Origin: Thermus antranikianii DSM 12462
Lineage (GTDB): Bacteria > Deinococcota > Deinococci > Deinococcales > Thermaceae
Length of the DNA: 43,246 bases
Direction of reading: 5' to 3'
Assembly (NCBI RefSeq): GCF_000423905.1
Contig: NZ_AUIW01000016.1
Span: 1-43,246 of the forward strand
The notes beneath the pieces are model-generated. The model saw only the letters and a list, made by a program, of their open reading frames with translations, was not told the origin of the DNA and made no database searches. Shown here piece after piece: positions 4,124 to 12,858 of this stretch. The translations under genes were made by a program, and so were the position numbers. Within the stretch, counting starts at the first letter, position 1, and each line of letters starts with the position of its first letter.

Positions 4124-5094
4124 GCCAACACCTCCTTTGCCGCTTTGAGGATGTCCTCCACCTGGGGAAGAACCCGGCGCTCCAACGGAGGGCTAAAGGG
4201 AATGGGCACATGGGCCGCCCCCACCCGCGCCACGGGGGCCTTGAGCTTTCCCCAAAGCCTCTCCTCCAAGGTGGCGGCGATCTCGGTACCCGGACCCAGG
4301 AAGCGCCACCCCTCGTGGGCCACCACCGCCCTGCCCGTCCTTTCCACGGAGGCCAGCAGGGTATCCCAGTCCAGGGGATAGAGGGTCTTAAGGTCCACCA
4401 CCTCCGCCTGCACGCCCTCCCCGGCCAGGAGTTCGGCAGCTTCCAGAGCCTTGTGCAGGGTCAGGGAGTAGCTGATGAGGGTGAGGTCCGTCCCCGGACG
4501 CACCACCTCCGCCCGGCCCAAGGGGACCAAGTACTCCTCCTCGGGGACAGGCCCTTTTCGCGGATAAAGGGCCTTGTGCTCAAGATAGAGCACGGGGTCC
4601 TCAGACCGAATAGCGCTTTTTAATAGACCCTTGGCATCCTTGGGGGTAGCGGGGGCCACCACCTTGAAGCCCGGCAGGTGGAGGAAAAGGGTCTCGAGGC
4701 TCTTGGAATGATGGGCGCCAGCGGAACGGATGGCCCCATCCGGGGCCCGGATCACCAGGGGAACCCGGAGCTTGCCCCCGGACATGTAGCGGATGCTGGC
4801 CGCCTGGTTGGCCAGCTCATCCATGGCCAGAAGAAGGAAGTCCGCGAAGTGGATGTCCAAGACGGGACGGGCACCCACCAGCGCCGCCCCCAAGGCCGCC
4901 CCCACCAGGGTGGGCTCGCTGATCGGGGTATCCCGAACCCTTTCCAGGCCGAACCGCTCCGGCAACCCTTTGAACTGCCCGAAAATGCCCCCCTGCTTGG
5001 CGATGTCTTCCCCCATAAGAAAGACCCGAGGATCCCGGGCCATCTCCTCCTCCATGGCCTCCCGGGTGGCCTCGGCAAAGGTGATCTCCCTCAT
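4114..5094 (-). CDS. 2-oxoacid/acetoin dehydrogenase E1, beta subunit
   Basis: This 326-residue protein is the beta half of a thiamine-diphosphate dehydrogenase (PDH-beta/AcoB/BkdB family). The transketolase-like N-terminal domain contains GEDIAKQGG near residue 28, RVRDTPISEPTLVGAALG (about 55-72) and DFLLLAMDELANQAA. The C-terminal transketolase domain follows from about residue 200, with DLKTLYPLDWDTL and AHEGW. The start MREITFAEA is chosen because its ATG overlaps the alpha-subunit stop as ATGA; longer upstream extension of the frame would lie inside the alpha gene. Family length is about 325, so it is complete. Substrate specificity is not evident. Confidence 0.92.
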   Translation of the reverse strand: MREITFAEATREAMEEEMARDPRVFLMGEDIAKQGGIFGQFKGLPERFGLERVRDTPISEPTLVGAALGAALVGARPVLDIHFADFLLLAMDELANQAASIRYMSGGKLRVPLVIRAPDGAIRSAGAHHSKSLETLFLHLPGFKVVAPATPKDAKGLLKSAIRSEDPVLYLEHKALYPRKGPVPEEEYLVPLGRAEVVRPGTDLTLISYSLTLHKALEAAELLAGEGVQAEVVDLKTLYPLDWDTLLASVERTGRAVVAHEGWRFLGPGTEIAATLEERLWGKLKAPVARVGAAHVPIPFSPPLERRVLPQVEDILKAAKEVLAWR

Positions 5095-6062
5095 CCCTCC
5101 CCCCACGGGTAGTCGCCCACCGGCTCGGCGAATAGGTCTGTCAGGGCTTCCTCCGGATCTGGCCACGAGCTGCGCTCCGCAAAGGCCACCGCCTCCTCCA
5201 GAAGCTCCTCCTCTTCCCTTTCCAGGTCCTCGAGTTCTTTCTGGGCAACGCCTGAGGCCAGGAGCTTACCCCGGGCGATGGCCAAGGGATCCCTCCTTCG
5301 GGCTTCCTCCACCTCCTGGCGGCTCCGGTACCGCTCGGGATCACCCACATAATGCCCCTTAAAACGATAGGTGTGCACCTCCAGGAAGGCTGGCCCCCGG
5401 CCCATGCGAATGCCGGAGAGGAGTTCGGCCGTAGCCCCATAGACCTCCTCCACGTCGGTACCATCCGCTTCCAGATACGGCACCCCATAGGCGGCGACCA
5501 GGGCGGGAACACGGAAAGCATGGCTCTCCTCAAAACCGGTGGTGGAAGCATACCGGTTGTTTTCCAGAACAAAGAGCACGGGAAGCCTCCACAGGGCCGC
5601 CAGGTTCAGCCCCTCGTGGAGCACCCCGCGGCCCAAGGCCCCATCCCCGAAGAAGCAGAAGACCACCCCCTCCCGCCCCAAAACCCGGAGCCCCAGCCCG
5701 GCACCCACGGCGATGGGGATACCGCCAGCCACGATGCCGTTGGCCCCCAGCATCCCCCGGTCGGCGTCAAAGAGGTGCATGCTCCCCCCCTTTCCCCGGC
5801 AGATCCCCGTCTTACGGCCGAAGAGCTCCGCCATCATGGCCCTCGGTTCGACCCCCACCGCCAGGGCGTGGCCGTGACCCCGGTGCGTGCTGGTGAGGTA
5901 GTCCCCCGGACGGTAGTGGGCCAAGACTCCTGCCGCCACGGCTTCCTGCCCGATATAGAGGTGGACAAAGCCAGGGATCTTTCCCGCAAGAAAGAGGCGC
6001 TCCACCCGCTCCTCGAAGCGGCGGATCCGGTACATGAGCCGGTAGAGGTCAAGGAGCCCCAT
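5091..6062 (-). CDS. 2-oxoacid/acetoin dehydrogenase E1, alpha subunit
   Basis: This 323-residue protein is the thiamine-diphosphate-binding alpha subunit. The cofactor motif runs from FFGDGALGRG to LFVLENN (about residues 137-168), and the substrate-loop segment STHRGHGHALAVG and the KGGSMH segment are typical. By eye it most resembles acetoin dehydrogenase AcoA (PGFVHLYIGQEA, GICRGKGGSMH, GMLGANGIV), but branched-chain or pyruvate E1-alpha proteins share these features. The ATG is preceded by GGAGGAGG and overlaps the end of the TrmB-like gene by 14 nt. Together with E1-beta and the free lipoyl protein it would decarboxylate or cleave its substrate and hand the acyl group to lipoate. Confidence 0.92.
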   Translation of the reverse strand: MGLLDLYRLMYRIRRFEERVERLFLAGKIPGFVHLYIGQEAVAAGVLAHYRPGDYLTSTHRGHGHALAVGVEPRAMMAELFGRKTGICRGKGGSMHLFDADRGMLGANGIVAGGIPIAVGAGLGLRVLGREGVVFCFFGDGALGRGVLHEGLNLAALWRLPVLFVLENNRYASTTGFEESHAFRVPALVAAYGVPYLEADGTDVEEVYGATAELLSGIRMGRGPAFLEVHTYRFKGHYVGDPERYRSRQEVEEARRRDPLAIARGKLLASGVAQKELEDLEREEEELLEEAVAFAERSSWPDPEEALTDLFAEPVGDYPWGEG

Positions 6063-6885
6063 GAACCTCCTCCCCCGTCACCATTTGCCTGAGATCCTCC
6101 CGTCCCGTCCACAGGGCGGTGAGCTTGTCCACCCCGTACGCAAGGGTCATCTCCGCCAGAACCACATCGTGGCGCACATATTCCTCCGCCACGAGCACAA
6201 GGGCAGGATCCCGCGTACGAACGGCCCAGCTATCTCCCTGGCTACTGAGGTTGCCCACCACCACTTCTTGATGATCCCGAACAACCACGAAAAGTCGGGC
6301 ACGAAGCCTGCCTTCCACTACTTTGGGATCGACGAAGTGATGGTAGTAAACCTTTCCCAGTCTGGGATCAGCCCGATCCCCAAAAAGCACGAGGCGGATC
6401 CGCACACCTCGCTCTCGAGCGTTCAACAAGGCGTCGTGAAGAGCATCCAACTGCTCCTGCCACAAGGACAGGGTAAGGGCCCCCTGGGCCTGCTCCACCA
6501 AGGACAGGGCCTCGGTCAGGGTCCTATCTGGCCCGCGAACCCGCCAGATGGCCTCTGCAGGCCGCTCTGGAGTCAGCCGGGACAAGCTCTCCTTAGCACG
6601 GGAAAGCTTGCCCATCACATCCCGCTGTAGGCGGGAAAGTAGCTCTTCCGGCGGAACGGCTCCGTAGAAAACGCCCTCCTTATCCTCGATCCGGTATGCA
6701 GCTCCCCTTGTCACGAGGCGCTCCAGGGCCTGATAGACCATCGAGCGGGGCACGCCGCTTGCCTTGGCCACCTCATATCCCTTCTGCCTACCCCCACGCA
6801 ACAGGGCCAGATAAGCCCTGGCTTCATACTGGCTGAAACCGAGAGCCTGTAAATCCCTAAGGGCGATGGCAGCGGGATCCATCAT
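6049..6885 (-). CDS. TrmB-family transcriptional regulator
   Basis: This 278-residue protein has an N-terminal winged helix of the TrmB type (about residues 10-75: ALGFSQYEARAYLALLRGG, then SGVPRSMVYQALERLVTRGA), a short helical linker, and an effector domain related to the phospholipase-D-like fold (TLSLWQEQLDALHDAL to the C-terminus). TrmB proteins usually bind sugars or other small ligands; the ligand here is unknown. It is the first gene of the operon and overlaps E1-alpha, so it most likely controls its own operon. Two ATG codons in tandem are possible starts; an AGGAGG lies 16 nt upstream, which is unusually far, so translation may rely on a short leader. Confidence 0.85.
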   Translation of the reverse strand: MMDPAAIALRDLQALGFSQYEARAYLALLRGGRQKGYEVAKASGVPRSMVYQALERLVTRGAAYRIEDKEGVFYGAVPPEELLSRLQRDVMGKLSRAKESLSRLTPERPAEAIWRVRGPDRTLTEALSLVEQAQGALTLSLWQEQLDALHDALLNARERGVRIRLVLFGDRADPRLGKVYYHHFVDPKVVEGRLRARLFVVVRDHQEVVVGNLSSQGDSWAVRTRDPALVLVAEEYVRHDVVLAEMTLAYGVDKLTALWTGREDLRQMVTGEEVHGAP

Positions 6886-7049: not shown

Positions 7050-7078
7050 GGAAACGCTTTTTGGGAAACAATCGCTTC
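7050..7078. promoter_or_regulatory. Imperfect operator-like repeats in the trmB/lacI divergent gap
   Basis: GGAAACGCTTTTT (7050-7062) resembles a LacI-type operator half, and GGAAACAATCGCTTCC (7063-7078 region) is an imperfect palindrome with six of eight pairs matched. They lie in the roughly 300-base gap between the divergent TrmB-like and LacI-like genes and could bind either regulator. The rest of the gap (6952-7049) shows nothing recognisable. Confidence 0.35.
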
Positions 7079-7137: not shown

Positions 7138-7166
7138 TTGCAAGCGCTTTCACCCCATGGTATAGT
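7138..7166 (+). promoter_or_regulatory. Promoter of the lacI/sugar cluster
   Basis: TTGCAA (7138-7143), a 17-base spacer and TATAGT (7161-7166) form a good sigma-70-type promoter. Transcription would begin about 10 nt before the ATG at 7182, giving a very short leader without a clear ribosome site. Confidence 0.65.
7139..7152. promoter_or_regulatory. LacI-family operator overlapping the -35 box
   Basis: TGCAAGCGCTTTCA is a 14-base palindrome around AGCGCT with a single mismatched pair. It covers the -35 hexamer of the lacI promoter, so binding would block polymerase and give autorepression. The same core recurs as a perfect palindrome at 8271-8282. Confidence 0.65.
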
Positions 7167-7181
7167 GACGGACAAGACACC

Positions 7182-8174
7182 ATGGTGCGCAGTCGCCCAA
7201 CCATTGAGGAGGTCGCCCGCCGCGCTGGGGTCTCGCCGGCCACCGTTTCCAGGGTGCTGAACGGCACAGCAAGGGTTTCCCGGGATAAGGTCCGGGCCGT
7301 CCTCGAGGCCGTGGAGGCGCTAGGCTACACTCCAAGCCCCCAGGCCCAGAGCCTAGCCAAGGGCCGCTCCTACGCGGTGGGAATCATCCTACCCGACTTC
7401 TCCAGCGCCTTTTACGGGCCCATCCTCGAGGCCATCACCCTGGAGCTGGAGTCCACCCCTTTCCGTCCCATCGCCGTACCCGGCCATTGGAGCCTGGTGC
7501 GGGAACTCGAGGCCCTGGACTTCCTCAAAGGGCACCGGGTGGAAGCCCTCCTACTTTTGGGAACTTCTTTGGAAAGCTCGGCCCTCAAGAACTTGGATAT
7601 GCCCGTACTGGCCTTCGGACAACCCCTGGAGGGACCCAGGGTATGGTCCTTAGTGCTGGACAATCGCCAAGCGGCCTACCGTGCCACCCGCTACCTCCTC
7701 GACAAGGGGCACCGGAAGATTGCCCACATTTCCAGCCACCGGGGAGGCATGGACATTCGCGAGCGGCTTCTTGGCTACCGCAAGGCCATGCGGGAAGCCG
7801 GCCTCGAGGTTCGGGTGGTCTACGGCAACCTTCAGGAAGACGGCGGATACAGGGCCACCCAGGAGCTTTTAAGCCGCTACCCCGACACCACGGCTATCTT
7901 TGCCGCAAACGACCAAACCGCCTTTGGGGCCAGGCTCTACCTCTTTGAACAGGGCGTGCGCGTACCCGAGGACATCTCCCTTGTGGGCTTCGACGACATT
8001 CCCTTGGCGGCTTATCACATTCCCCCCCTTACCACTGTCCGCCAGCCCGCAGGGGAGGTGGGCCATGCCCTTATAGAAGCCCTAAAAAACCTTCTTGAAG
8101 GAAAGGAGCCCCAATTCCCTTTCATCGCCTTGGACCTCGTGGAGCGGGCTTCGGTAAAGGAGGTGGGAACCTGA
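7182..8174 (+). CDS. LacI-family transcriptional repressor
   Basis: This 330-residue protein has a classic LacI N-terminal helix-turn-helix (TIEEVARRAGVSPATVSRVL, residues 7-26), the hinge-helix region ending near ALGYTPSPQAQSLAKGRS (about 48-66), and a periplasmic-binding-protein-like sugar-sensing domain with GIILPDFSSAFYGPI, ANDQTAFGARLYL and SLVGFDDIPLAAY. Length is normal. It is the first gene of a sugar-uptake and beta-glucosidase cluster, so its inducer is probably a beta-glucoside or a breakdown product (inference). Palindromes with the AGCGCT core on its own promoter and at the start of the next gene are its likely operators. Confidence 0.93.
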   Translation: MVRSRPTIEEVARRAGVSPATVSRVLNGTARVSRDKVRAVLEAVEALGYTPSPQAQSLAKGRSYAVGIILPDFSSAFYGPILEAITLELESTPFRPIAVPGHWSLVRELEALDFLKGHRVEALLLLGTSLESSALKNLDMPVLAFGQPLEGPRVWSLVLDNRQAAYRATRYLLDKGHRKIAHISSHRGGMDIRERLLGYRKAMREAGLEVRVVYGNLQEDGGYRATQELLSRYPDTTAIFAANDQTAFGARLYLFEQGVRVPEDISLVGFDDIPLAAYHIPPLTTVRQPAGEVGHALIEALKNLLEGKEPQFPFIALDLVERASVKEVGT

Positions 8175-8183
8175 GCTGAAAAA

Positions 8184-8198
8184 GGAAAGCGGGTTTCC
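8184..8198. repeat. Short inverted repeat between lacI and binding-protein gene
   Basis: GGAAA-GCGGG-TTTCC has 5-bp arms and sits 10 bases after the lacI stop codon. It resembles half sites of the neighbouring LacI palindromes but lacks the AGCGCT core, so it may be a weak operator or chance. Confidence 0.3.
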
Positions 8199-8262
8199 GT
8201 AGGGCCCAAAGGCAACTAGGACTTCAGCCGCCCTTGAGGCAAGCGAAAGAGGAGGTTTGCGT

Positions 8263-9567
8263 ATGCTTAAGAAAGCGCTTTCAACCCTTCTCTTCCTCCT
8301 GTCCGTTAGCTTTGGACAAAAGACCCTCGAGGTATGGATCATGCCCAACTCAGGCCAACCGGCAGAGGACTTCAAGGCCTTGGTAGCGCCATTTGAGCGG
8401 GCCAACAACGTGGAGGTTAAGGTTACGGTACTGGACTGGGGCGTGGCCTGGACCAGGATCACCGCCGCCGCCACGAGCGGGGTAGGCCCCGACATCACAC
8501 AACTGGGCACCACATGGGTGGGAGCTATAAGCGCCATGGGTGTTCTAGAGCCTCTGGACGATGTGCTCCAAGCTCTTGGCGGTCAACAAGCCTATCTCCC
8601 CGCTGTCTGGAACACCACCCGCCTGGCCGGATCCCGCCAGGCCACCGCCATGCCGTGGTTTTCCGAGCTCAGGGCCTTTTACTATCGCACCGACGCCCTG
8701 CGATCCGCCGGAATCAATCCCGCCCAGATGTTCTCCAGCTGGCAAAACTTCGAGGCGGGTTTGGAGCGCCTGGCCCGCTCCTCCTTCACCGACCCCGAAA
8801 CCAAGCAGCGCCTTTTCCCCTTTTGCACCGCGGGAAAGAACTCCTGGGATGTGCTCCATAACGCTGCTCCCTGGATATGGGGCGCCGGTGGAGATATCGT
8901 CAGACAGGTGGCTGGACGGTGGCAAAGCGCCTTGAACACCCCGGAGAGCCTGCAAGGCCTTTACTTCTTCCTCTCCCTAGCGCAGAAGGGCCTCATCCCC
9001 GCGGAAAGCCTGGAAAAGAACACCGCCCAGATTGAGGCCGACTTCCAAGCAGGCCGATGCGCCACCTTCGCCAGCGGTCCTTGGATGATCCAACGGGCTC
9101 AGGTACCCGAGGCCAAGGGAGGGTTCGCGGAACGGCCGGCCGCCAAGAACCTCGGCGTAGCCCCCTACCCTCCGGGTCCAAAGGGGCGTTACACCTTCTT
9201 TGGAGGCTCCAATCTGGCCATCTTCACCTTTTCCAAGAACAAGCCTCTGGCCAAGGAGCTTCTGAAGTACCTGGGTAGCCTCGAGGCCCAACTGGCCTAC
9301 GCTAGGGCTACCGGAATGTTGCCTGCTTTGCGGGCCGCTTGGAACGCTCCGGAAATCCAGGGTAACCCCCTAATGCGCACCTTTATCCAGGCCGCCCAGT
9401 TCGGGCGCACCTACCCGAGCCTGGCGGGGTGGGGCGGGGTTGAGAACCTGGCCGTCCAGCACCTGGGCATGGCCTGGGACCTGGTGGCCCAGAAGAAGCT
9501 CACCCAGGAAGGGCTTAAGGACCTCATGGACAAGGCCTCCAACGCCATCAACGGGGCCCTGAGGTAG
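8263..9567 (+). CDS. ABC transporter sugar-binding protein (family 1)
   Basis: This 434-residue extracellular solute-binding protein belongs to the MalE-like family 1. A signal peptide (MLKKALSTLLFLLSVSFG) ends before QKTLEVWIM and has no lipobox cysteine. Sugar-binding-protein signatures are VGPDITQLGTTWVG near residue 75, AMPWFSELRAFYYRTDAL near 130 and ASGPWMI near 270. ATG 8263 is chosen because AGAGGAGG (8248-8255) is 7 nt upstream; a TTG at 8257 is too close to it. It is followed by two permeases and a beta-glucosidase, suggesting beta-glucosides as substrate (inference). No ATP-binding subunit is encoded nearby. Confidence 0.92.
   Translation: MLKKALSTLLFLLSVSFGQKTLEVWIMPNSGQPAEDFKALVAPFERANNVEVKVTVLDWGVAWTRITAAATSGVGPDITQLGTTWVGAISAMGVLEPLDDVLQALGGQQAYLPAVWNTTRLAGSRQATAMPWFSELRAFYYRTDALRSAGINPAQMFSSWQNFEAGLERLARSSFTDPETKQRLFPFCTAGKNSWDVLHNAAPWIWGAGGDIVRQVAGRWQSALNTPESLQGLYFFLSLAQKGLIPAESLEKNTAQIEADFQAGRCATFASGPWMIQRAQVPEAKGGFAERPAAKNLGVAPYPPGPKGRYTFFGGSNLAIFTFSKNKPLAKELLKYLGSLEAQLAYARATGMLPALRAAWNAPEIQGNPLMRTFIQAAQFGRTYPSLAGWGGVENLAVQHLGMAWDLVAQKKLTQEGLKDLMDKASNAINGALR
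8271..8282. promoter_or_regulatory. Perfect LacI-type palindrome inside the gene start
   Basis: GAAAGCGCTTTC is a perfect 12-base palindrome starting six bases after the ATG codon of the binding-protein gene, coding for part of KKALS. It shares the AGCGCT core with the operator on the lacI promoter. A repressor bound here would act as a roadblock or join a loop to the upstream site about 1.1 kb away. Confidence 0.6.
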
Positions 9568-9610: not shown

Positions 9611-10531
9611 ATGGCTCACCTTTGGAAGAAACACGGTCTAGCCTACCTTTTCGTCGCCCCTGCCATTCTGGGCATGCTCCTCGTCCACTACGGGCCCATG
9701 CTTCAAGGCATCTATATGGGTTTCCTGGACCTCCGCCTGGAAACCCTGCGCCTCTACCTCTCCGCCCCTTTTGTAGGGTTCGCCAATTTCCAGGAGATTC
9801 TCTTCGACCCAAGCTCCACCTTCCGTACCGGCTTCGTCCACGCGGTACGCACCACCCTCCTTTACGCATTGGCCGTAAACACCTTGACCTTATCCCTTGG
9901 CCTCCTCATGGCCCACGTGCTCAACCGCCCCCTGGTGGTGCGGGGTCTACTCCGCACCCTTTTCCTCCTCCCCTGGGTAGTGCCCAGCTATGTGGTGGGA
10001 TTGTTGTGGGGCTTCATGTGGCTTAAGAACGGCGTCATCAACACCCTCCTGGTGGAAATCCTTCGTCTCCTACCGGAAAAACCCCATTGGCTCATCGGAC
10101 CCCTGACCTTCGTCGCCATCGTTCTGCCCACCGTCTGGCGGAGCTGGCCCTTCGTAATGGTCACCTACCTCGCGGCCCTCCAGAGCATTCCTCAGGAGCT
10201 TTACGAAGCAGCCCGGGTAGACGGGGCCACTCCCTGGCAGCGGTTCCGCTTTATCACCTGGCCCTACCTTCGCCCTGTAACGGCCATCCTCCTCCTCTAC
10301 GGGCTCCTGGGCACCCTCTACAGTTTCAACATCGTCTACATGATGTTCGGCCACGGGGCTGGCTACCCCGGGGAATGGGGGGACCTTCTTATGACCAACC
10401 TCTTTCGCAACACCTTCGGCATGTGGAACTTCGGACTGGGCGCAGCGGCCAGCACCCTTTATATGCTCCTTACCTTGGCCCTCATCCTATTGTGGTATCG
10501 CGCTTTCCACGAGGACCTGAGAGCGAGGTGA
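9611..10531 (+). CDS. ABC sugar transporter permease 1 (MalF type)
   Basis: This 306-residue inner-membrane permease has about six helices and the ATPase-contact EAA loop EAARVDGATPWQRFRFITWP (about residues 198-217). It is one half of the membrane channel with the next gene, and both belong to the carbohydrate-uptake-1 group. The ATG at 9611 lacks a good ribosome site and lies 12 nt after the hairpin, consistent with lower expression than the binding protein. It ends 2 bases before the second permease begins. Confidence 0.93.
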   Translation: MAHLWKKHGLAYLFVAPAILGMLLVHYGPMLQGIYMGFLDLRLETLRLYLSAPFVGFANFQEILFDPSSTFRTGFVHAVRTTLLYALAVNTLTLSLGLLMAHVLNRPLVVRGLLRTLFLLPWVVPSYVVGLLWGFMWLKNGVINTLLVEILRLLPEKPHWLIGPLTFVAIVLPTVWRSWPFVMVTYLAALQSIPQELYEAARVDGATPWQRFRFITWPYLRPVTAILLLYGLLGTLYSFNIVYMMFGHGAGYPGEWGDLLMTNLFRNTFGMWNFGLGAAASTLYMLLTLALILLWYRAFHEDLRAR

Positions 10532-10533
10532 AC

Positions 10534-11391
10534 ATGCGCGAGGAACGGTGGGTAACCTACGGCGCATGGGTGGTGCTCGTCCTGATCCTCACGCTGCAGC
10601 TTTTCCCTATCGCCTGGATGGTCAATACCTCCCTAATGACCCAGCTGGAGGCCGCCACAGGAAGCCTCCTACCCAAAACACCCCGATGGGAGAACTACTT
10701 GGACATCTGGAGGGTTCTGCCCTTCTTTCATTACCTGAAAAACTCCCTCCTCGTCTGCTCGCTCACCACCCTCTTCGCCTTGGGGATAGCTACCCTGGCG
10801 GGCTATGCCCTGGCTCGCTTTCGCTTCCCCGGAGCGGAACTCTTCGGGGGAAGCGTTCTCCTCACCCAGGTCATCCCGGGCATTCTCTTCCTCATTCCCA
10901 TCTACATCATGTACATTGCCTTTCAAAACTGGGTCCGGCAGGCCCTTGGCCTCGAGATCCGCTTAGTCGGCACCTACCCGGGTCTTATCCTGACCTACAC
11001 CGCCTTCTTTGTTCCCATTAGCATCTGGATCTTGAGGGGGTTCTTCGCTTCCATTCCCAAGGAACTGGAAGAAGCGGCCCTGGTGGACGGGGCTACCCCC
11101 TTTCAGGCCTTCCGCCAAGTCATCCTTCCCCTGGCCCTCCCCGGAATCGCTGCCACCGCAGTTTACATCTTCCTCACCGCTTGGGATGAGCTTCTCTTCG
11201 CGCAAATCCTCACCAACGAGGCCACCGCCACCATCCCCGTGGGCATTCGTAACTTCGTGGGCAACTACCAAAACCGTTACGACCTGGTCATGGCCGCTGC
11301 CACAGTGGCCACGCTCCCCGTGCTCGTTCTCTTCTTCTTGGTGCAGCGGTGGCTGATCCAAGGGCTAACCGCTGGGGCGGTGAAAGGATGA
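10534..11391 (+). CDS. ABC sugar transporter permease 2 (MalG type)
   Basis: This 285-residue permease has six helices and an EAA loop EAALVDGATPFQAFRQVILP (about residues 183-202). MalG-type marks include NSLLVCSLTTLFALGIATLAGYALARFRFPG in the first helices and TAWDELLFAQILT near the end. The start at ATG 10534 is chosen because GAGAGCGAGG lies just before it and the upstream frame is inside the first permease. It pairs with the MalF-type protein and needs an ATPase encoded elsewhere. Confidence 0.93.
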   Translation: MREERWVTYGAWVVLVLILTLQLFPIAWMVNTSLMTQLEAATGSLLPKTPRWENYLDIWRVLPFFHYLKNSLLVCSLTTLFALGIATLAGYALARFRFPGAELFGGSVLLTQVIPGILFLIPIYIMYIAFQNWVRQALGLEIRLVGTYPGLILTYTAFFVPISIWILRGFFASIPKELEEAALVDGATPFQAFRQVILPLALPGIAATAVYIFLTAWDELLFAQILTNEATATIPVGIRNFVGNYQNRYDLVMAAATVATLPVLVLFFLVQRWLIQGLTAGAVKG

Positions 11392-11562: not shown

Positions 11563-12858
11563 GTGAACGCGAACTCCTTCTTGTTTGGCGTGGCCACCAG
11601 CGCGTACCAGATCGAGGGCAGCACCAAAGAGGATGGGCGTGGGCCCTCCATATGGGACGCCTTTGCCCAGCGAAAGGGTACCATTCGTGACGGCAGTACG
11701 GGCGAACCCGCTTGTGACCACTACCGCCGCTGGCGGGAGGACCTTGCCCTAATGAAGGAACTGGGTATAGGGGCCTACCGCTTCTCGATAGCCTGGCCGA
11801 GGGTTCTCCCGGAAGGGAAGGGGCGAGTGAACCCCAAGGGCCTTGCCTTCTACGACCGGCTGGTGGATGGGCTCTTGGAAGCTGGGATTACCCCTTTTAT
11901 CACCTTGTACCACTGGGATCTGCCCCTGGCCCTTGAGCAACGGGGAGGGTGGCGAAGCCGGGAAACCGCTTACGCCTTCGCCCAGTATGCGGAGCTCGTC
12001 GCAAGAAGCCTGGGAGACAGGGTCCCTTTCTTTGCCACCTTGAACGAACCCTGGTGCAGCGCTTTCCTGGGGCACTTTACCGGAGAACACGCTCCAGGTC
12101 TCCGCAACCTCGAGGCAGCCCTTCGAAGCGCCCACCACCTGCTCCTAGCGCATGGCCTCGCCGTGAAGGCCCTCCGCGCATCTGGGGCAAGGCAGGTGGG
12201 CATCGTCCTTAACTTTACCCATATAGAAGGAGAGGACAGGGAAGCCGTGGCACGGGCGGACGCTTACCATAATCGCTTTTTCCTGGATCCACTCCTGGGC
12301 CTCGGCTACCCCCAGGGGATCTTCTTGGCGGAGCATCCGATGCCTATCCAGCCGGGTGACATGGAAATCATTGCGGCACCCATCGACTTCCTCGGGGTGA
12401 ACTACTACACCCGGGCCAGGGTGGCCCCAGGCGAGGGGCTATACCCTGTGCGCTATCTTCCCCCCAAGGAAGCCACCACCAGCATGGGTTGGGAGGTGTA
12501 CCCCGAGGGTTTATACCTGCTCTTACGGCGCCTTTCGCAAACGACCCCCTGGCCCCTTTACGTTACCGAAAACGGCGCCGCCTACCCTGACCGCTGGCGG
12601 GGAGAAGAGGTGGTGGAAGATCCCGAACGGGTTGCCTACCTTCAAGCCCACCTCGAGGCCACCTTGAAGGCTAGAAGGGAAGGTGGGGATATCCGTGGGT
12701 ACTTTGTCTGGAGCCTTCTCGACAATTTTGAATGGGCTCAAGGCTACACGCAACGCTTTGGCCTTTTCTATGTGGACTACCCAAGCCAGCGTCGCATACC
12801 CAAGCGAAGCGCCCTCTGGTACCAAAAACGCATCGCCGAGATCACCGCTGATCCCTGA
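11563..12858 (+). CDS. bglA: Beta-glucosidase/beta-glycosidase, GH family 1
   Basis: This protein of about 431 residues is a (beta/alpha)8-barrel glycosidase cleaving beta-glucosides and probably beta-galactosides and beta-fucosides. The acid/base glutamate is in TLNEP (E162 from this start) and the nucleophile in YVTENGAAY (E336). N-terminal FLFGVATSAYQIEGS and C-terminal GYFVWSLLDNFEWAQGY are standard GH1 marks. It appears close to the thermostable beta-glycosidase of T. thermophilus, whose catalytic residues I recall as E164 and E338; starting two codons earlier at TTG 11557 would restore that numbering, but that codon abuts the AGGAGG, so GTG 11563 with 6-nt spacing is given. No signal peptide: it acts on imported sugars. 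Confidence 0.95.
   Translation: MNANSFLFGVATSAYQIEGSTKEDGRGPSIWDAFAQRKGTIRDGSTGEPACDHYRRWREDLALMKELGIGAYRFSIAWPRVLPEGKGRVNPKGLAFYDRLVDGLLEAGITPFITLYHWDLPLALEQRGGWRSRETAYAFAQYAELVARSLGDRVPFFATLNEPWCSAFLGHFTGEHAPGLRNLEAALRSAHHLLLAHGLAVKALRASGARQVGIVLNFTHIEGEDREAVARADAYHNRFFLDPLLGLGYPQGIFLAEHPMPIQPGDMEIIAAPIDFLGVNYYTRARVAPGEGLYPVRYLPPKEATTSMGWEVYPEGLYLLLRRLSQTTPWPLYVTENGAAYPDRWRGEEVVEDPERVAYLQAHLEATLKARREGGDIRGYFVWSLLDNFEWAQGYTQRFGLFYVDYPSQRRIPKRSALWYQKRIAEITADP

Follow-up and report, generated by a model that had tools for sequence, protein, structure and literature searches.

Operators recognized by the LacI family of transcription factors are usually palindromes of even length centered on a CG pair, and fewer than 1% of the family's sites lie in coding regions, the examples given being a LacI site in lacZ and a PurR site in purB, according to a survey whose operon definition left out internal sites (PMC4052901). 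As stated in the same survey, 72% of the LacI-family regulators studied were autoregulated (PMC4052901). On promoters of weak to moderate strength, LacI has been reported to roadblock transcription by as much as 25-fold, and when polymerase flux is low the roadblock has been likened to a resistor that imposes a constant fold reduction (PMC4132739). A related role has been proposed for CcpA, as a roadblock to read-through into rocG in Bacillus subtilis (PMC4348106).

We examined a stretch of 43,246 nucleotides from Thermus antranikianii DSM 12462 (NCBI RefSeq assembly GCF_000423905.1, contig NZ_AUIW01000016.1, positions 1 to 43,246; hereafter, the window), whose genome comprises 2.16 Mb in 33 contigs. 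The window contains a five-gene unit with the regulator first, in which lacI is followed by genes for a binding protein, two permeases and a GH1 beta-glucosidase. The features considered here are as follows:

7138..7166, + strand: lacI promoter, consisting of -35 TTGCAA (7138-7143), a 17-bp spacer and -10 TATAGT preceded by TG (from a consensus scan)
7138..7152, + strand: predicted operator O1, TTGCAAGCGCTTTCA, covering the lacI -35 (in 17/17 Thermus loci)
7182..8174, + strand: gene for the LacI-family repressor, 330 aa (Pfam LacI and Peripla_BP_3; solved-structure matches)
8249..8255, + strand: Shine-Dalgarno GAGGAGG of the binding-protein gene (from the sequence)
8263..9567, + strand: gene for the sugar-binding protein, 434 aa (SBP_bac_8, SBP_bac_1; PDB 7c63 group, E 7.6e-243)
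8269..8283, + strand: predicted operator O2, AAGAAAGCGCTTTCA, codons 3-7 of the binding-protein gene (palindrome, 17/17 loci, codon tests)
9611..10531, + strand: ABC permease 1 (BPD_transp_1)
10534..11391, + strand: ABC permease 2 (BPD_transp_1)
11563..12858, + strand: GH1 beta-glucosidase (Glyco_hydro_1, 485.5 bits; NCBIfam TIGR03356, 598.6 bits, above cut-off)

The regulator is a LacI-family transcription factor in which both the N-terminal HTH (PF00356 LacI, 60.2 bits, cut-off 27) and a periplasmic-binding-type sensor domain (PF13377 Peripla_BP_3, 118.8 bits, above cut-off) are present, and its best solved matches were CcpA, then PurR among others. The binding protein closely resembles the protein of PDB 7c63 and related entries, a group that appears to correspond to the beta-glucosides-binding protein of T. 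thermophilus HB8, which is described as binding oligosaccharides of 2-5 glucosyl units (PMC9601137). Because of this resemblance, the operon most likely serves the uptake and hydrolysis of beta-glucosides. Relatives of the whole operon were from Thermus, as were 26 of the 34 plasmid records matching the region. The divergent neighbor of lacI encodes a TrmB-type regulator (window 6049-6885; PF01978, 73 bits; PF11495, 36.2 bits), and a gene for an E1-type dehydrogenase lies beside it.

As the original prediction had claimed, a palindrome (TGCAAGCGCTTTCA, 7139-7152) overlaps TTGCAA (7138-7143), the consensus -35 of the lacI promoter, and a perfect 12-bp palindrome, GAAAGCGCTTTC, lies just after the binding-protein start at 8271-8282, where it forms the core of O2. 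The latter had been placed six bases after the ATG, which holds if one counts to the palindrome's first base, although only five bases intervene between the ATG (8263-8265) and the palindrome. The two sites were also said to be about 1.1 kb apart, in agreement with the 1131 bp from O1 to O2 in the window. O2 starts 14 bases past the end of the Shine-Dalgarno. Since the 12-mer of O1, GCAAGCGCTTTC, is an even palindrome with a central CG and one mismatch, and the core of O2 is likewise even with a central CG, both predicted sites have the usual form of LacI-family operators. Each is one base off the 14-bp palindrome TGAAAGCGCTTTCA (O1 has C at position 3 and O2 has A at position 1), and therefore the sequence ranks neither as the stronger site. 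We infer that one local LacI-family repressor would recognize both.

In the window, as in the entire 2.16-Mb genome, O2 is the sole perfect copy of GAAAGCGCTTTC, for which a first-order Markov model built from the window predicts 0.003 and 0.14 perfect copies, respectively. A genome-wide survey covering up to one mismatch, as had been proposed along with the original prediction, returned 21 places, compared to three for the reversed pattern and a Markov expectation of five. Two of the 21 are O1 and O2. Judged on mechanical ORF lists, 18 of the other 19 fall within ORFs of 100 aa or more, L018 being the exception and lacking the central CG, while three (L017, L019, and L023) are near a gene start and drift between species. 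No persuasive further operator was found among these 19 one-mismatch places, and the repressor is probably dedicated to this operon. Within the window, near-matches to GAAAGCGCTTTC with up to three mismatches numbered 42, as opposed to 17 expected from shuffles; much of this surplus may reflect codon composition rather than operators. A candidate third operator, GGAAACGCTTTT at 7050-7061, lies 88 bp before O1 (the spacing of lac O3) and was rejected, as a G.AA.CG.TT site within 300 bp before O1 was absent from all other 16 loci.

Orthologues of lacI were found in 10 of 27 Thermus species genomes at E ≤ 1e-90, and those of the binding protein in 9 of 27 at E ≤ 1e-100. Among 111 genomes of the phylum, the binding protein was detected at E ≤ 1e-45 in nine, all of which belong to Thermus. 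We also examined eight of the 26 matched Thermus plasmid records and counted seven of them (HB8, HB27, JL-18, SG0.5JP17-16, TTHNAR1, SNM1-7, and T. oshimai JL-2); T. brockianus pTB1 has the letters of genome G006 and was not recounted. O1 and O2 were both present in all 17 of the resulting loci (10 genomes with lacI and seven plasmid records), which are not independent, since they include six T. thermophilus strains, the nearly identical G010 and G011, and many other close relatives. When we asked whether the palindrome is missing at orthologous gene starts, O2 was found to occupy the same codons of the binding-protein gene in 17/17 loci, so the original prediction withstood this check. The exact 12-mer was retained in 16/17 loci for O2 and in 15/17 for O1. 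The sole O2 variant is GAAAACGCTTTC in Thermus sp. JCM 17653 (G020), where residue 5 changes from Ala to Thr, and the only O1 variants are GCAAGCGGTTTC in G018 and GCAACCGCTTTC in T. oshimai; all three are altered at the base beside the central CG. T. oshimai also shows a Lys3 to Arg change just outside the O2 12-mer, which is itself intact. Judging from these alignments, the protein varies around and inside O2, yet the predicted operator form persists. O2 was absent from nine binding-protein relatives outside Thermus, and the predicted O1/O2 arrangement is known from one genus only.

Damage to the operon was seen at some loci. In G026 (L044), the operon is gone from binding-protein codon 21 on, with O1, lacI, and O2 intact, and the sequence then runs on into a GH1 remnant (matching protein residues 390-426). 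In G018 (L034, from 5109), the binding-protein gene is shortened and matches residues 1-216 only; O1 and O2 remain. A transposase gene interrupts the binding-protein gene in the SNM1-7 operon (L169, 4042-5142), and another, of the IS256-like ISTth4, interrupts permease 1 in the HB8 operon (L025, 8974-10194). That O2 persists in loci with a disrupted operon or binding-protein gene (G018, G026, SNM1-7, and perhaps G020) may reflect recent decay, draft errors, or another use of O2.

Given local codon usage (eight window genes, 3255 codons), the probability of KKALS being spelled so as to contain GAAAGCGCTTTC was 0.0029. A seven-row alignment of the binding-protein genes, which omits G018 and G026 (both broken), G020 (frame shift near residue 327), and G011 (almost the same as G010), contains 105 columns in which the residue is conserved and the window uses a minor codon. 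Only nine of these were invariant; AAA4, GCG5, CTT6, and TCA7, which follow one another in O2, make up four of them, and the remaining five are four CTG codons and one AGG. With G020 included, 4/67 such columns were invariant (4/62 with G020 trimmed), three of the four being in O2; the number of invariant O2 codons falls to three because G020 changes residue 5. By comparison, 2/58 minor-codon columns were invariant in a 10-row alignment of lacI. Runs of 15 invariant bases that do not look like an operator are also seen at binding-protein codons 35 and 57-60, and these consist mostly of preferred codons.

KKAL is a common start for a signal peptide and is able to spell the palindrome, so O2 could conceivably be a coincidence of coding. 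Near-matches do arise in this way, as in the signal peptide MRKALLL of another binding-protein gene (L023) and at the start-proximal L017 and L019. However, the 11-letter core was kept in only 2/18 orthologues of L023 (two rows start at an internal Met, with no core in the letters displayed ahead of it), in 2/27 orthologues of L017 (an ATP-binding-protein-like frame, judged by eye), and in 3/27 orthologues of L019. From these controls, near-matches close to gene starts appear normally to drift between species, whereas O2 is frozen, minor codons included, and has its match in O1, at the promoter of lacI itself. We rejected the coincidence on the basis of the codon tests and the three drifting controls, and regard it as scarcely credible; the same data indicate that O2 is maintained by selection beyond the protein code. 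It is also very improbable that the conserved letters of O2 work at the level of the mRNA, by controlling translation or through structure at the start codon, instead of as DNA. RNA structure does matter just past a start codon, where the palindrome lies. However, these letters recur at the -35, a region that should be outside the transcript, and the palindrome paired with itself would give no more than a 4-bp stem capped by a GCGC loop. Moreover, the O2 variant and both O1 variants alter the same kind of position.

As to how such a site would act, a repressor bridging O1 and O2 could form a loop of ~1.1 kb that strengthens repression of the promoter, with O2 as an auxiliary site like lac O2. 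Looping by LacI-family proteins is established, and in 17/17 loci the regulator gene has a matching site on either side. However, local alignment of the repressor to E. coli LacI stops at residue 321 of 330 (LacI residue 325 of 360), and the nine residues left are too few for a tetramerisation tail of the LacI type. The sites also do not stay in helical phase, since dividing their spacing (1110-1131 bp) by a 10.5-bp turn leaves 0 to 7.5 bp over, although phase counts less at ~1.1 kb. On balance, we consider a loop unlikely. It is doubtful, too, that an additional, unrecognised promoter downstream of lacI is the main target of O2. This promoter would lie in the gap before the binding-protein gene, which measures 88 bp in the window and 70-80 bp in other loci. 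While separate promoters for structural genes are common, a weak consensus scan of 11 loci revealed no promoter-like site from the end of the lacI promoter to the start of the binding-protein gene, the gap included. The scan was insensitive, in that the conserved lacI promoter itself, which stands in the same place in orthologues, was missed in 3/11 loci where its -10 is too poor. It did detect a promoter-like site inside the window's binding-protein gene (8313-8342), downstream of O2. Even a promoter in the gap would have to include the Shine-Dalgarno in its transcript, which would put the center of O2 at +28 or so, if not further downstream, so the repressor would still act largely on early elongation.

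Since the Shine-Dalgarno must be on the message, O2 is inside the transcript whatever the promoter, and it is thus a candidate site within a transcribed region and downstream of a promoter, as a roadblock would have to be. The explanation that we favor, and consider reasonably probable, is that O1 and O2 are two operators of one local repressor on a regulator-first operon, with O2 acting as a roadblock after lacI. O1, over the -35 of the only recognisable promoter, would impose negative autoregulation on the whole unit. Because lacI is the first gene of that unit, full silencing at O1 would stop repressor synthesis too. The position of a site right after lacI would let leaky polymerase finish that gene, so that repressor bound to O2 could halt polymerase which had leaked past O1 after the full lacI frame and before the binding-protein start. 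Supply of the repressor would then continue in part while the proteins for uptake and hydrolysis stay off, and a beta-glucoside or derivative, as the presumed inducer, would free both O1 and O2. A promoter held down by O1 would be expected to fall in the low-flux regime of roadblocking described above. O2 is most likely a second brake on the uptake genes. The original suggestion that lacI could be made while the uptake genes are shut fits this layout, with the regulator first and O2 at the first structural gene; of the two mechanisms offered for it, roadblocking appears to fit better, and looping is less likely in view of the missing tail and the unconserved helical phase. A bolder form of the favored explanation, to which we give even chances of being right, is that the unit has a built-in splitter, whereby the repressor would brake its own promoter and independently cut the transcript after its own gene, with signal-peptide codons doubling as the barrier. 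If true, repressor supply and uptake capacity would be on separate settings from one promoter.

An intercistronic hairpin was considered as an attenuator and rejected. A stem of 6-7 bp ends 19-23 nt before the binding-protein ATG in 9/11 loci and is absent from the gap in the window (8175-8262). The stems differ (CCGTCC/GGACGG, CCACCCC/GGGGTGG, and CCGCCC/GGGCGG), and the hairpin was equalled by 33 to 93 of 200 shuffles in each locus. A count of pairs on a MAFFT alignment, in which the stems are unaligned, gave nothing.

Elsewhere in Thermus, a palindrome-pair script applied to 19 stretches around other LacI loci (a LacI frame being recognised in 17) found pairs in two, L145, where the second site is within lacI, and L153, where the pair is GC-rich and weak. 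A second Thermus LacI-type regulator (L145, L146, and L151-L157) has CGTAAACGTTTACG or variants near its own start codon. In L145 (G012, 4406-4477), a second copy of the CGTAAACGTTTACG type stands 58 bp further inside the coding region, and in L146 the sole copy is inside the coding region. A pattern consisting of a Shine-Dalgarno, an ATG, and an operator-like palindrome was matched in 21 of the 111 phylum genomes, at 15 distinct places besides orthologues of the lacI operon; our inspection covered 12 of these 15 (all but L056/L076, L059, and L062), plus one other. At one of the 12, in a different genus of the same order (G065), the operator-like GAAAACGCTTTC occurs directly after the ATG of a 412-aa frame (L057, 1501-1523). 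In open-licence PubMed Central literature, neither the repressor nor O2 was described by title or abstract among the matches listed.

Intragenic operators of the LacI family are already known but rare, and the Thermus O2, as read from its sequence, adds a clear example of a known form of control. It constitutes a clean LacI-type case within a gene, in which selection appears to go beyond what the protein requires, as seen across the Thermus loci that we examined, and suggests a compact natural design that separates expression of a repressor from that of the genes it controls. T. thermophilus HB27 has long been used for genetics and has the same two 15-mers as the window; therefore, the idea is directly testable. 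The LacI site in lacZ and the PurR site in purB of E. coli are likewise LacI-family operators in a transcribed coding region. In contrast to these, O2 occupies the opening codons of the structural gene that comes directly after the regulator, and is kept across the genus. The proposal made for CcpA at rocG is similar in that a LacI-family protein would stop read-through ahead of a downstream gene. However, CcpA as described there is a global regulator with an intergenic site, whereas Thermus would employ a local repressor and an intragenic site in a regulator-first operon. Finally, autoregulated local sugar regulons of the LacI family, as far as they are described in the survey, likewise have an even palindrome centered on CG at the promoter of the regulator, but in Thermus the second site is in the downstream coding region and not in the same upstream region.
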